Virus record (IMG/VR): IMGVR_UViG_3300013132_004223
Location: 1-20,736 of that record
DNA: 20,736 nucleotides
Source: a virus
Strand: one strand, 5' to 3'
This document shows positions 692 to 7,541 of the stretch, piece by piece; position 1 is the stretch's first letter, and each line of letters opens with the position of its first letter. The notes under the pieces are model-generated. The model searched no databases. It had not been told where the DNA came from and worked only from the letters and a program-made list of their open reading frames with translations. A program made the position numbers and the translations under genes.

Positions 692-722
692 CAAAGTTAA
701 TAAATCGTTTCAAATATTCAAA
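692..722 (-). promoter_or_regulatory. Bacteroidota-type promoter of the HNH nuclease gene
   Basis: TTTG (722-719), 19 bases, then TAACTTTG (699-692) on the minus strand, ending 4 bases before the ATG at 687. Its upstream element overlaps the end of the methyltransferase gene. The nuclease can thus be transcribed separately from the methyltransferase, probably as a leaderless or nearly leaderless mRNA. Confidence 0.65.
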
Positions 723-1465
723 ATTCTTTTTTTACTATATTCAACTTGTTGTTCACTAATCTCACTCCCTATAAAATTTCGTTTGATTCCTTGGCAGGAA
801 ACTCCAGTAGTTCCAGTACCCATAAATGGGTCGTATACAATATCACCTTCCTTTGTATAAATTTTAAGTAGTTTGTCGCACAATTCTGTTGAGTATGTCG
901 CCTTATTCAGGTTAGTCGATTCGTCATTATTTTTGGCAGTTATGAAATTATCAATAATTTCATAATATTTTTGACCTTTAGGTGATATCTTGGTTGTTTT
1001 TTTATAACAATTAAAGGTCTTAATTTCTTTTTTCCTAACTATAACAAAAATAAATTCAACTATTCTATTCAATCTATTGTAAGATGCCGGATGAGGTATA
1101 CTGTTACTTTTTTTCCATATAATAGTGTCCGCAACCATAAAAGGAGTATTAGTAATTATATGAGATATCATAGTATAAGGAAGTGATGGATTTTCAATTG
1201 AGTATGAAAAATTATACAGAATAACTCCATTATCAGCTAAAACTTTATCAATTGAATTAAATACTTTAGAAGTCCATTCATTATATTCTTCTTCGGTTTT
1301 CCAATCTTCATACGCATCATATCTTTTTTGTTTATCAGCATATCCACCTTTTCTATTTGTCATATTATAAGGAGGTGAAGTCAACACACAATCAATGGAT
1401 TTTTCATCCATATTTTGCATAGTTTCTAAACAATCTTCATTGTAAAACGTATTAAGTTCAATCAT
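710..1465 (-). CDS. Beta-class site-specific DNA methyltransferase (N4-cytosine or N6-adenine)
   Basis: A 251-residue S-adenosylmethionine-dependent DNA methyltransferase. The catalytic motif IV, TSPPYN (residues 29-34), comes first, and the AdoMet-binding motif I, DPFMGTGTTG (from about residue 212), comes near the C-terminus. This order defines the beta class, and the SPPY form is most common in N4-cytosine enzymes, though some N6-adenine enzymes share it. I start at the ATG at 1465. The in-frame TTG two codons earlier lies inside the promoter's TATATTTG box and is rejected. The gene is followed after 22 bases by an HNH nuclease, so it probably protects phage DNA from that enzyme. An orphan methyltransferase that shields against host restriction is the alternative. 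Confidence 0.88.
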   Translation of the reverse strand: MIELNTFYNEDCLETMQNMDEKSIDCVLTSPPYNMTNRKGGYADKQKRYDAYEDWKTEEEYNEWTSKVFNSIDKVLADNGVILYNFSYSIENPSLPYTMISHIITNTPFMVADTIIWKKSNSIPHPASYNRLNRIVEFIFVIVRKKEIKTFNCYKKTTKISPKGQKYYEIIDNFITAKNNDESTNLNKATYSTELCDKLLKIYTKEGDIVYDPFMGTGTTGVSCQGIKRNFIGSEISEQQVEYSKKRILNI

Positions 1466-1468
1466 AAA

Positions 1469-1498
1469 CAAATATAATAATAATTTTTAAATAAACAA
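1469..1498 (-). promoter_or_regulatory. Bacteroidota-type promoter of the methyltransferase gene
   Basis: TTG (1498-1496), 19 bases, TATATTTG (1476-1469) on the minus strand. Only three bases separate the box from the ATG at 1465, so transcription should begin at or very near the start codon and give a leaderless mRNA. Confidence 0.75.
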
Positions 1499-1503
1499 GA
1501 TGG

Positions 1504-1541
1504 AGTGTAGTGGGACTGCAGTTCCCTAAGGCTCCTACACT
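1504..1541 (-). other. GC-rich intergenic hairpin, possible structured RNA
   Basis: In the 94 bases between two minus-strand genes, AGTGTAG (1504-1510) pairs with CTACACT (1535-1541). Inside, GGGA (1512-1515) pairs with TCCC (1523-1526) around a CTGCAG palindrome. There is no U-run after the stem in either direction, so it is not an ordinary terminator. The segment is clearly richer in G and C than its surroundings. An 18-base stretch (1509-1526) matches 14 of 18 positions at 3188-3205, in another structured spacer. Confidence 0.45.
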
Positions 1542-1559
1542 AAGTTGTTCCTTTTTATT

Positions 1560-2036
1560 TTAGATTTTAATTTCAAAATGAATCATATCATAATTTCCTA
1601 TGAAGTGTTCTATCTCATAATTCATTCCTTCCCCAACTCTTTTCTTTATTGATAGTAGTCCAATTCCTGACCCACCTTTATCAGTAAAATCTTCATTTTT
1701 TAATTTATGATTTATCTTTTCTTTAATCTCTTCGTCAGTTGAACCGGTTACAGATTGTAATTGTTTCTCAAATTCTTCAGTATGTTCTTTTGATATTAGG
1801 TTTCCACTCTTTATGATATAGGTATTACTTTCTTTAATTAATTCATAGTATGCAAAGGTATTACCATTTTCATTCTTATCTGAATGGTGAATAATATTTT
1901 GTAATATCTCAACAGTTAAAAAACAAATTTTTCTTATTAGTAATGGTTTTTCATTTATTTCTTCAATAAATTTAACTACCTCATCAACATCTATAGAAGT
2001 AAAATTCTGTGTTTTATAGAGTAAAGAGTTTTCCAT
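1560..2036 (-). CDS. SiaB-like / DUF6272 family ATPase-fold protein (putative regulatory kinase)
   Basis: A 158-residue protein with a GHKL (histidine-kinase-like ATPase) nucleotide-binding pattern. The N-box is in VEILQNIIHH, with Glu43 and Asn47, and the glycine-rich lid is DKGGSGIGLLSIKKR (residues 119-133). Proteins of the SiaB/DUF6272 family have this short form and resemble anti-sigma or anti-anti-sigma kinases, which phosphorylate serine on partner proteins in partner-switching pathways. There is no sensor or dimerisation domain. It stands alone between a terminator (2091-2114) and the hairpin at 1504-1541. An ATATTTAT box lies 23 bases upstream. Another signalling protein, a receiver domain, occurs at the right end of the window, but nothing shows that the two interact. 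The fold is likely; the substrate is unknown. Confidence 0.68.
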   Translation of the reverse strand: MENSLLYKTQNFTSIDVDEVVKFIEEINEKPLLIRKICFLTVEILQNIIHHSDKNENGNTFAYYELIKESNTYIIKSGNLISKEHTEEFEKQLQSVTGSTDEEIKEKINHKLKNEDFTDKGGSGIGLLSIKKRVGEGMNYEIEHFIGNYDMIHFEIKI

Positions 2037-2059
2037 TTGATATTTGTCAGTTTACGTAT

Positions 2060-2067
2060 ATAAATAT
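2060..2067 (-). promoter_or_regulatory. ATATTTAT box upstream of the SiaB-like gene
   Basis: The minus strand reads ATATTTAT 23 bases before the ATG at 2036. The same octamer lies much closer (4-5 bases) to five other starts. The longer spacing makes this member weaker. Confidence 0.3.
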
Positions 2068-2090
2068 CAAAAAGTTCCCCATAAAAATAA

Positions 2091-2114
2091 AAAAGGGACA
2101 AAAATCATCCCTTT
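2091..2114 (-). terminator. Rho-independent terminator after clpP
   Basis: On the minus strand AAAGGGA, a 9-base loop and TCCCTTT form a hairpin, followed by TTTATTTTTAT. It lies just downstream of the ClpP stop codon at 2121 and closes that operon. Confidence 0.8.
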
Positions 2115-2120
2115 ATTTTT

Positions 2121-2852
2121 TTATTTTGACATTACTTCTTTTTGGTAATAATCATCAAACCCTTCCAACATTTCAGTAATTGACTTTGTCCCTTCAGATT
2201 TGATGACTTCATCAATCAATCCGAATTCTTTCGCTTCATCTGATGAATACCATCGGTCTCTTCTTGAGAACTCCAAAACCTCATCAAATGTTTTTCCACA
2301 ATTTTCAGCCAACATCTTAAACAAAATGTAATTGTATTTTTCAGCTTCCAATTGGTTAATACGTGTATCTTGGACATTACCCTGATTTCCATGACTCACC
2401 TGGTGGGTCATCACCTTTGAATAAACAAGGGATGAACGCTTTCCTTTTGCTCCTGATGACAATAGTACCGAACCCATTGATGCACACATTCCAATATTGG
2501 TTGTTGCAACCTCTGACTTAATATAATTCATCAAATCAACAATTCCGAGTCCACATAGAACTGAACCACCAGGTGAGTTAATGTATAATGTAATATCTCG
2601 TTTTTCAACCGAATCCAAGAACAATAATTGAGCTTGGACAATATCTGACATTCTTTGGTCAACAGGTCCTGATACCCACAAAATTCTTTCTCTCATCAAT
2701 CTTGAAAAGATATCTATTTGTGTTGCTCTCAATTCCCTTTCTTCCAACACATATGGCGTTAAGGAGTTTTCAAAAGTGTCAAGATTTAATGAGGAAATTC
2801 CTTCACTCATTGCGAATTTTCTAAATTCTTTTCCGTAATTCATATTAATCAT
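2121..2852 (-). CDS. clpP: ClpP-family ATP-dependent protease, proteolytic subunit
   Basis: A 243-residue ClpP serine peptidase. The catalytic triad is visible: Ser125 in MCASMGS, His150 in VMTHQ, and Asp199 in RRDRWYSSDEA, just before the conserved EAKEFGLIDEV. The oxyanion-region motif LYINSPGGSV (residues 89-98) is intact. ClpP forms a barrel that degrades proteins fed by Clp ATPases; none is encoded here, so a host ClpX/ClpA/ClpC would have to supply unfolding. The protein is about 40 residues longer than usual, with an extra N-terminal segment before VLEERELR. The ATG at 2852 overlaps the stop of the upstream gene by 8 bases; a second ATG at 2843 is equally possible. Some phages use ClpP-like enzymes as head-maturation proteases, but the close match to bacterial ClpP and the lack of capsid neighbours favour a protein-turnover role. 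Confidence 0.93.
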   Translation of the reverse strand: MINMNYGKEFRKFAMSEGISSLNLDTFENSLTPYVLEERELRATQIDIFSRLMRERILWVSGPVDQRMSDIVQAQLLFLDSVEKRDITLYINSPGGSVLCGLGIVDLMNYIKSEVATTNIGMCASMGSVLLSSGAKGKRSSLVYSKVMTHQVSHGNQGNVQDTRINQLEAEKYNYILFKMLAENCGKTFDEVLEFSRRDRWYSSDEAKEFGLIDEVIKSEGTKSITEMLEGFDDYYQKEVMSK

Positions 2853-3072
2853 TTAATTGTTCTCTTCTTTTATATGTAACACCATCAAGCAATTCTATTA
2901 GCTCTCGTTGGATGGATTGTCTTTCCTCCAATGTAAATCTATTTTGATATCTATCAAGATATAGATTAATCAACTTCTTTGCCCCCGCATCCTGAAGTGG
3001 ATGGTTGATTGACTGAATAACATCCTTAACCCAGTTTAGAATATCCAAATAATGTGTTGATTTTGCCGCCAT
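2845..3072 (-). CDS. Small unknown protein translationally coupled to clpP
   Basis: A 75-residue, mostly helical, charged protein that I do not recognise. It contains no Cys, no membrane segment and no signal peptide. Its stop codon overlaps the clpP start region by 8 bases, so the two are probably co-translated and may act together, for example as an adaptor or assembly partner (inference). It sits downstream of the GC-rich spacer 3096-3238 in the operon that starts at the promoter at 3640-3670. Confidence 0.7.
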   Translation of the reverse strand: MAAKSTHYLDILNWVKDVIQSINHPLQDAGAKKLINLYLDRYQNRFTLEERQSIQRELIELLDGVTYKRREQLND

Positions 3073-3095
3073 TGTTTTTTGTTTATTTAAAAGGT

Positions 3096-3238
3096 AAGTC
3101 CGACTTCTCTACCCGTGTGGTGTTTCACGAGTCGGACTTGTTTGTTAGATTCACCAATATAGTATTTCTTCGGATATGCCCCAAGAGAGTGGGACCGTAG
3201 TAACCATCCACCAAAGACCTCGGGGTCTTCTTTACAAA
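3096..3238 (-). ncRNA. GC-rich structured spacer, candidate non-coding RNA or operon leader
   Basis: This spacer between two co-directional genes is clearly richer in G and C than the rest of the window and full of inverted repeats. AAGTCCGACT (3096-3105) pairs perfectly with AGTCGGACTT (3130-3139), with an inner CGTG/CACG stem. CCCA/TGGG pairs around 3181-3193. AAGACC/GGTCTT closes a tetraloop near 3213-3230. An 18-base core (3188-3205) resembles 1509-1526. There is no clear U-run, so it is not a standard terminator. It may be a processed small RNA, a leader controlling the clpP genes, or an attenuator. One minus-strand frame is also open across it but has no ATG, so a degraded coding remnant remains possible. 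Confidence 0.4.
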
Positions 3239-3631
3239 TTAGATTACTCCGATTTCAGACATTGCCTCATCAGCATATTCCATAATCGTGTCAGAGTCAA
3301 CAGATTCAGTAGCCTCAACAAACGCATCTCTCAATTTGTCTTCGTCAACGTATGAGTTAATCTCACGACCATCAACATCAAAAGATACTACTTCATCAGA
3401 ATCAATGTTTGAGAATGCTTCGTCAAAGATATACTGATTTACCCTGTTAGTGTAGTCAGCTAGGAAATCTTCAAGTTGTTGTCTTGTGAAGGTATACTGT
3501 GCATCTCCTTCGACTCCTGCGTCAGTTCTAACTTCGTTCAATTGTGATTGGATTTCGTTAAGACGCTCAATCAACTCAGCGTTTTGGTTTTTTTTCTTTT
3601 TACTCATAATATTCATTTTTGGTGTTTTCAT
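3239..3631 (-). CDS. Unknown acidic protein with a short coiled-coil segment
   Basis: A 130-residue protein of unknown function. It opens with a lysine-rich stretch (MSKKKKNQN), followed by a likely coiled-coil helix (AELIERLNEIQSQLNEVR). The C-terminal two thirds are strongly acidic and rich in Asp, Glu and Ser. No membrane segment, Cys or catalytic motif is seen. A consensus host-type promoter ends 8 bases before the ATG at 3631, and the gene heads the operon running through the structured spacer to clpP. In-frame ATGs at codons 6 and 9 are alternative starts. Confidence 0.75.
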   Translation of the reverse strand: MKTPKMNIMSKKKKNQNAELIERLNEIQSQLNEVRTDAGVEGDAQYTFTRQQLEDFLADYTNRVNQYIFDEAFSNIDSDEVVSFDVDGREINSYVDEDKLRDAFVEATESVDSDTIMEYADEAMSEIGVI

Positions 3632-5673: not shown

Positions 5674-7541
5674 TTAACCTTTAACTTCTTCAAAGTCAAC
5701 ATCATTAACCTCTCGGTCTGTTTGTTCATTTGTCTCTCCTGAACCTTGGGAGTATAGGTCAGAAGATATTCCTTGAAACGTTGTGTTAACTTTATCCATT
5801 GAGGTTTTAATTTTCTCAACATCTTTTGATGTGTGAGCGTCCTTCAACTCTTGTAATGAAGAATTAATTTCAGATTTTTGGTCGTCAGTTAATTTATCTT
5901 CAATATCCTTCAAAGATTTTTCAATTTGGAAAATCATTGAGTCCGCTTGGTTAATTGTTTCAGCATCTTCTCTAACTTTCTTGTCAGAATCTGCATTCAT
6001 TTCAGCTTCTTGTTTCATTCTTTCAATTTCTTCTTTTGAAAGTCCTGATGATGCTTCAATACGAATGTTTTGTTGTTTTTCAGTTCCCTTATCAATTGCA
6101 GATACATTAATAATACCGTTAGCGTCAATATCAAAAACAACTTCAATCTGTGGAACTCCTCTCATTGCCGGTGGTAGACCATCCAAGTGGAATCGTCCAA
6201 TTGTACGGTTGTCTTTAGCCATTGCTCTTTCACCTTGTAACACGTGAATTTCAACTGATGGTTGGTTGTCAACTGCCGTTGAGAACACCTGTGATTTCTT
6301 TGTTGGGATTGTTGTATTCGCCTCAATCAACTTGGTGAATACTCCTCCCATTGTTTCAATACCAAGTGATAGTGGTGTAACATCTAACAACAATACATCC
6401 TTAACATCACCTGCCAATACCCCTCCTTGAATTGCCGCTCCCAAAGCAACTACCTCGTCAGGGTTAACCCCTTTTGATGGTTCTTTACCAAAGAACTTTT
6501 TAACTGCTTCCTGAATTGCCGGAATACGAGTTGAACCTCCTACCAAAATGATTTCATCAATCTCACCGACAGTAAGGTTTGCATTTGCCATAGCCTTCTT
6601 ACAAGGCTCAATAGTTCTTGAACTAAACTATCAACAAGTTGTTCAAACTTTGCTTTAGATAATGTTCTTACCAAGTGTTTTGGAACACCATCAACTGGCA
6701 TAATGTATGGTAAATTAATCTCTGTTGAAGATGTTGATGACAACTCAATCTTTGCCTTTTCAGCACCTTCACGAAGACGTTGTAGTGCCATTGGGTCTTT
6801 TGATAAATCCAATCCATTCTCGTCTTGGAATTCTTTTACCAACCAGTCAATGATTGCATTGTCAAAGTCATCACCACCCAAGTGAGTGTCACCATCGGTT
6901 GACAATACTTCAAACACTCCATCACCTAATTCCAAAATTGATACGTCGTGAGTTCCACCACCACAGTCAAATACAACAACTTTCATATCTGAACCTTTCT
7001 TATCCAATCCGTAAGCCAATGCCGCAGCGGTTGGTTCATTGATAATACGTTTAACTGTAAGTCCTGCAATTTCACCTGCCTCTTTTGTTGCCTGACGTTG
7101 AGCGTCATTGAAGTATGCCGGTACGGTAATAACAGCTTCAGTAACTTCACTTCCCAAATAATCTTCAGCAGTTTGTTTCATCTTCTGTAAGACCATTGCA
7201 GAAATCTCTTGTGGTGAAAACTTACGGTCATCAATCTGAACACGAGGGGTATCACCAGTACCCTTAACTACCTTATAAGGAACACGTTTAATTTCACCTT
7301 TACTTTCGGTGTAACTAGTCCCCATAAATCTTTTAATTGAGTGGATAGTTTTCTCAGGATTAGTAACCGCCTGACGTTTTGCAGGGTCTCCAATCTTTCT
7401 TTCACCATCACTACCAAACCCAACAATTGAGGGTGTAGTTCTTTTACCTTCACTGTTAGTGATTACAACTGGCTCTGAGCCTTCCATTACGGAAACACAC
7501 GAATTAGTGGTTCCCAAATCAATTCCAATTATTTTTCCCAT
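5674..7541 (-). CDS. dnaK: DnaK (Hsp70 chaperone), interrupted by a single-base frameshift
   Basis: Together the two frames give about 622 residues, the usual DnaK length. The ATPase domain starts [20 protein letters not shown] and includes [25 protein letters not shown] and [13 protein letters not shown]. The interdomain linker [13 protein letters not shown], the substrate-binding domain ([26 protein letters not shown]) and a DnaK-like acidic tail ending DFEEVKG are all present. The phosphate-2 loop reads DCGGGTHD instead of the usual DLGGGTFD. Near 6617-6620 the frame breaks: the first half ends [11 protein letters not shown], then runs out of frame to a stop at 6540, while the homologous [15 protein letters not shown] continues in the -1 frame. 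One missing A (CAAGA for CAAAGA) explains this. There is no slippery heptamer, so an assembly error or recent mutation is more likely than programmed frameshifting. DnaK needs DnaJ and GrpE, not seen here. Confidence 0.93.

Follow-up and report, generated by a model that had tools for sequence, protein, structure and literature searches.

Few bacterial RNAs of unknown function are as large as GOLLD and ROOL, two phage RNAs tied to tRNA islands. The tRNA cluster of phage T4 encodes the stable small RNAs C and D, likewise of unknown function, and preQ1-II is an H-type pseudoknot with an embedded hairpin. Here we describe two structured RNAs in a viral DNA of 20,736 nucleotides (IMG/VR virus record IMGVR_UViG_3300013132_004223, positions 1 to 20,736; hereafter the window). 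Element 1 is a small pseudoknot and element 2 corresponds to the 3' domain of a large RNA, which in relatives comprises 400–540 nt. In our preferred reading, to which we assign a probability of roughly 75%, each of the two spacers contains a structured RNA, unrelated to the other, that belongs to the RNA repertoire of phages with large tRNA arrays (Table 1). Both RNAs have homologs, a structure marked by compensatory changes and an association with tRNA genes, and both are absent from Rfam.

An earlier note on this DNA had singled out two GC-rich islands, each in an otherwise AT-rich spacer between co-directional genes, as candidate structured RNA. Base composition agrees with this description, as GC content amounts to 50% in the island at 1500-1545 and to 42% in the spacer at 3073-3238 versus 31% in the window, and both spacers lie between minus-strand genes. 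Indeed, the search for further copies and compensatory changes that the note had proposed revealed many copies of both elements in relatives, all of which are metagenomic contigs and mostly incomplete, and the strong covariation of their conserved folds bears out the assignment as structured RNA.

Table 1. Coordinates of the two RNA elements and of adjacent genes in the window.
Feature	Position	Strand	Basis or context
Element 1, 53-nt H-type pseudoknot RNA with embedded hairpin	1501..1553	-	homologs in tRNA arrays and compensatory changes
Element 1, P1	1553-1550 (AAGG) with 1531-1528 (CCTT)	-	
Element 1, P2	1540-1535 (GTGTAG) with 1510-1505 (CTACAC)	-	
Element 1, P3	1526-1523 (GGGA) with 1515-1512 (TCCC)	-	
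Element 1, loop	1522-1516 (ACTGCAG; palindrome CTGCAG)	-	
Element 1, tail	1504-1501 (TCCA)	-	
Element 2, 3' domain of the large RNA (last ~135 nt)	3086..3221	-	nhmmer, covariance model, covariation
5' stub of the large RNA, AATTTGTAAAGAAGACCCC	3222..3240	-	alignment with relatives; fused directly to the 3' domain at 3222/3221
Element 2, helix B	3217-3211 with 3173-3167	-	
Element 2, hairpin C	3195-3190 with 3183-3178	-	
Element 2, pseudoknot	3156-3152 (TGGTG) with 3122-3118 (CACCA)	-	
Element 2, terminal hairpin	3139-3130 with 3105-3096, 3129-3126 with 3117-3114	-	
DNA methylase gene (N6_N4_Mtase)	710..1471	-	downstream of element 1; tRNA-Gln occupies the site in relatives
130-aa protein gene, no Pfam match	3239..3631	-	precedes the large RNA in close relatives

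The earlier note had linked the two islands through a common 18-base core. Both the positions and the sequences given there are correct (GGGAACTGCAGTCCCACT at 1526-1509(-) and GGTTACTACGGTCCCACT at 3205-3188(-), identical at 14/18 positions), and GTCCCACT is found at just these two sites within the window. However, this likeness is at best marginal, since of 3000 trials with dinucleotide-shuffled spacers 4.7% gave a best ungapped 18-mer with 14/18 or more identical positions, as did 1.1% of trials when shuffling was restricted to the two GC islands, both levels being given before correction for the selection of this pair. Moreover, the cores serve unlike purposes in the two folds. In element 1, GTCCCA extends over the 3' arm of the hairpin GGGA-ACTGCAG-TCCC, whereas in element 2 it forms the 5' arm of another hairpin, GTCCCA-CTCTCT-TGGGGC. 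Both points indicate that the elements are probably unrelated. An origin of both from a single RNA motif, which the 14 identical letters might suggest, appears very improbable, because their surroundings are conserved separately, the likeness vanishes in distant members of both families, and the two different covarying structures already contradict it. The implied link is thus unsupported: the elements differ in structure and in their sites in relatives, and have diverged separately. We therefore reject homology through the shared core and consider the likeness most likely a coincidence. Both elements occur together in 14 of the records searched, a pattern that suits a shared tRNA-array setting better than common descent.

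In relatives, element 1 resides within tRNA arrays, mostly between tRNA-Asp and tRNA-Gln, and in most records it lies 3-4 nt upstream of the latter. A covariance model that included the window in its training (R2) retrieved more distant copies and matched 21/47 records at E < 1e-5; a further model (R3) revealed no additional credible distant copies. In an alignment of 12 sequences, six pairs distributed over all three helices show double changes and none is changed on one side only, the two unpaired cells both deriving from a single misaligned row (L199). Accordingly varied forms are seen for P1 (GAGG/CCTC, AAGG/CCTT, GTGG/CCAC), P2 (GCGTAG/CTACGC, GTGTAG/CTACAC, GTGTGG/CCACAC) and P3 (GGGG/CCCC, GGGA/TCCC, AGGA/TCCT, AGGG/CCCT). 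The minimum-energy fold of element 1 alone was no better than that of shuffled sequences, the program being unable to fold pseudoknots. The hairpin loop reads A-CTGCAG, and A-GGTACC in record L200. Preservation of a six-base palindrome in both forms suggests kissing dimers. Pairing between the palindromic loops of two molecules may thus yield dimers of element 1, a proposal drawn from analogy and from one palindrome change. This change is a single event, and the chance of a palindrome in a random 6-mer is 1/64.

In most IMG/VR relatives, homologs of the upstream 130-aa gene are followed by a conserved non-coding block that starts with GACCCCAC and ends in a long hairpin. Pattern scans detected this large RNA also in more distant phages, often between tRNA genes; overall it adjoins tRNA genes or other genes, and its neighbours vary. 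No consistent ORF that could represent a hidden protein gene was found in it. A covariance model built without the window (R1) identified one copy each in 25/46 viral records, a figure that speaks for a single copy per record and not for prevalence, since 24 of the 25 records were the source of loci chosen for holding the RNA. The same model matches the window at 3233-3096(-) with 99.9 bits (E 4.5e-22), and nhmmer shows 3221-3085(-) to be homologous to the final ~135 nt of the RNA.

Covariation of the 3' domain was assessed on 24 sequences, excluding the window, with a hand-drawn structure that includes the pseudoknot. In this alignment 93.9% of cells are paired and 26/36 pairs show double changes. 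The covariation score was 0.550 as compared to 0.216 for shuffled and at most 0.122 for slid controls; for both RNAs the alignments were at hand when the structures were drawn, a procedure that gives the large RNA structure an advantage over slid controls, although pair changes remain numerous. The pseudoknot connects the junction strand with the loop of the terminal hairpin and displays double changes in 5/5 pairs, occurring as TGGTA/TACCA, CGCCA/TGGCG, TACCA/TGGTA and, as in the window, TGGTG/CACCA. Double changes were also counted in 6/7 additional helices, which lie in the 5' part and the centre of the large RNA. With its strong covariation and clear 3' domain, the large RNA provides a new family for comparison and structure solution. 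A third small conserved element (GAGAACCGTGAGTYYGCGGATGGAAACAACTAYARRACGAGCATACGTCATAC; L160:4606-4675) is located just 5' of the large RNA in records L158, L161, L166, L141 and L146. Its closing stem covaries (AAGTAAAG/CTTTACTT, AAGTAGAG/CTCTACTT, AAATAGAG/CTCTATTT), and the copy in L160 had no Rfam match.

The copy of the large RNA in the window is devoid of an internal part that measures roughly 260-400 nt in relatives. It is thereby reduced to the 3' domain and may be inactive. A search for the junction in other contigs yielded two matches, both in unrelated coding sequence and due to chance, and we therefore reject the deletion as an inherited form; records very near the window were possibly absent from these scans. 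The deletion is either unique to this record or arose during assembly. That element 2 in the window is functionless by itself, as a decaying relic or a misassembled intact large RNA, appears to us as likely as not. Besides the lack of the junction in any other contig, the loss of the 5' strand of the outer helix AGUA/UACU argues for it, as does a dnaK-like gene of the same contig that is split between two frames, indicating that the contig may hold errors. On the other hand, the pseudoknot and all remaining helices of the 3' domain are intact, and the junction forms a clean AAGACC/GGTCTT hairpin. In either case the question bears on the window copy alone and not on the large RNA family.

Neither element matched a catalogued family. 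In line with the earlier note, which could name no RNA family with this core, Rfam 15 returned no match above the gathering threshold and no credible one in E-value mode, and no paper describing either RNA was found in the open literature. ARAGORN and RF00005 gave no tRNA or tmRNA call on either element; as a separate observation, ARAGORN called a putative tmRNA at L107:2090-2486 in a phage contig carrying element 1. A preQ1-II or other catalogued riboswitch was dismissed for element 1, as Rfam models matched neither the window nor the L103-type neighbours scanned. Element 1 resembles preQ1-II in topology, with a hairpin in a loop of the pseudoknot, but is situated in tRNA arrays and not in leaders of transport genes. 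By description it can also be likened to the T4 RNAs C and D, which are small non-tRNA RNAs in a phage tRNA cluster. Within the collection of prokaryote genomes (84,980 species), neither the large RNA core pattern nor the element 1 pattern had an exact match. Among INPHARED phages, blastn produced no match for element 1 and nothing credible for the large RNA, and the large RNA covariance model had no match in the 634-kb phage LR745206, chosen for its shared clpP region. At this search sensitivity, these phages were accordingly dismissed as carriers.

Spanning hundreds of nucleotides, non-coding, phage-borne, near tRNA genes and with a covarying structure, the large RNA can be grouped with the large structured phage RNAs of tRNA arrays, which are a kind rather than a homologous family. 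It had no match to GOLLD (RF02032) above the Rfam gathering score and none to the covariance model of ROOL (RF03087), and both identities were rejected; a search of 38 records with the ROOL model, run without a positive control, yielded no match. GOLLD itself was detected in 18/38 clpP-bearing phage records (the L033 record and other clpP relatives; e.g. L098:413-804), one of which carries two copies. GOLLD and ROOL form RNA-only cages and are found near tRNA islands (PMC12286853). The large RNA is like ROOL a large phage RNA with pseudoknots near tRNA islands (PMC12286853), and like GOLLD a large structured RNA near tRNA genes of lake phages, several of the same records encoding both. However, it differs from GOLLD in having no sequence or model match to it and another conserved core. 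In view of their co-occurrence in 11 records, at separate loci, we reject the idea that GOLLD and the large RNA stand in for one another. The latter is a further large RNA, unrelated to GOLLD in sequence, in phages that also encode GOLLD.

As to their biogenesis, we propose that both RNAs are made within tRNA or gene transcripts and would be freed by tRNA processing, with a terminator-like 3' hairpin possibly contributing to the release of several large RNA copies, which end in a hairpin followed by a T-run. Several copies begin a few nucleotides after a tRNA 3' end, and the motif TAnnTTTG, sought as an own promoter, is present upstream of the large RNA in 2/26 cases, which equals the background rate; these two observations make release by tRNA processing likely. 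For both we then propose action in trans as stable molecules, since the RNAs are retained although the genes around them differ. It is improbable that the large RNA is instead a cis-acting element, i.e. a 3' UTR of the 130-aa gene or a leader of the next gene: it directly follows the 130-aa gene in the window and close relatives, but in other phages it is flanked by tRNA genes or preceded by other genes, and the genes downstream differ as well. By analogy with GOLLD and ROOL, the most probable role of the large RNA, though at somewhat less than even odds, would be that of a scaffold which during infection associates with copies of itself or with the translation machinery, perhaps the ribosome. 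A set of RNA machines in tRNA-array phages, in which GOLLD, an unrelated large RNA that forms multimers or binds the translation machinery and a pseudoknot dimer held by kissing loops, whose palindrome is preserved while its letters change from CTGCAG to GGTACC, would be combined, is a more speculative and rather unlikely extension.

For element 1, a role as a mere processing spacer that separates tRNA precursors and has no task once released is conceivable but doubtful. Its position nearly always beside tRNAs, and close to tRNA-Gln in most records, would suit such a role. However, element 1 is kept in the window, where no tRNA was found, and in L197, where no adjacent tRNA was called, and its conservation far exceeds that of other spacers. 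Distinctly less probable is a decoy of pseudoknot RNAs like the type III antitoxins, or else a mimic of tRNA that protects the phage tRNA pool. A compact H-type pseudoknot within tRNA arrays that has an acceptor-like stem and, in most copies, a UCCA tail is reminiscent of both, but the tail reads UCUA in L195, L197 and L200, demonstrating that a CCA end is not required; a tRNA-like structure, for which a conserved 3' CCA end was the test, was rejected on this ground. In addition, element 1 is present in a single copy without tandem repeats, and the comparison with antitoxins through Rfam gave no match. We thus favour a stable RNA belonging to the RNA set of tRNA-array phages, and as a compact pseudoknot element 1 lends itself to a direct test of dimerisation. 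With the alignments and models obtained here, the RNA complement of phage tRNA arrays becomes a testable question.

Some observations concern the genes of the window. A 75-aa protein encoded at 2845-3072 has a weak, below-cutoff Pfam match to Tma16 and recurs in relatives between the large RNA and clpP. The dnaK-like gene (5674-7541) is split over two overlapping frames, 6540-7541 and 5674-6591, reflecting either a real frameshift or a sequencing fault. Finally, an ICEA-family gene at 115-687 lies beside the N6_N4_Mtase gene (710-1471) directly downstream of element 1, and the two probably constitute a phage-borne restriction-modification pair.
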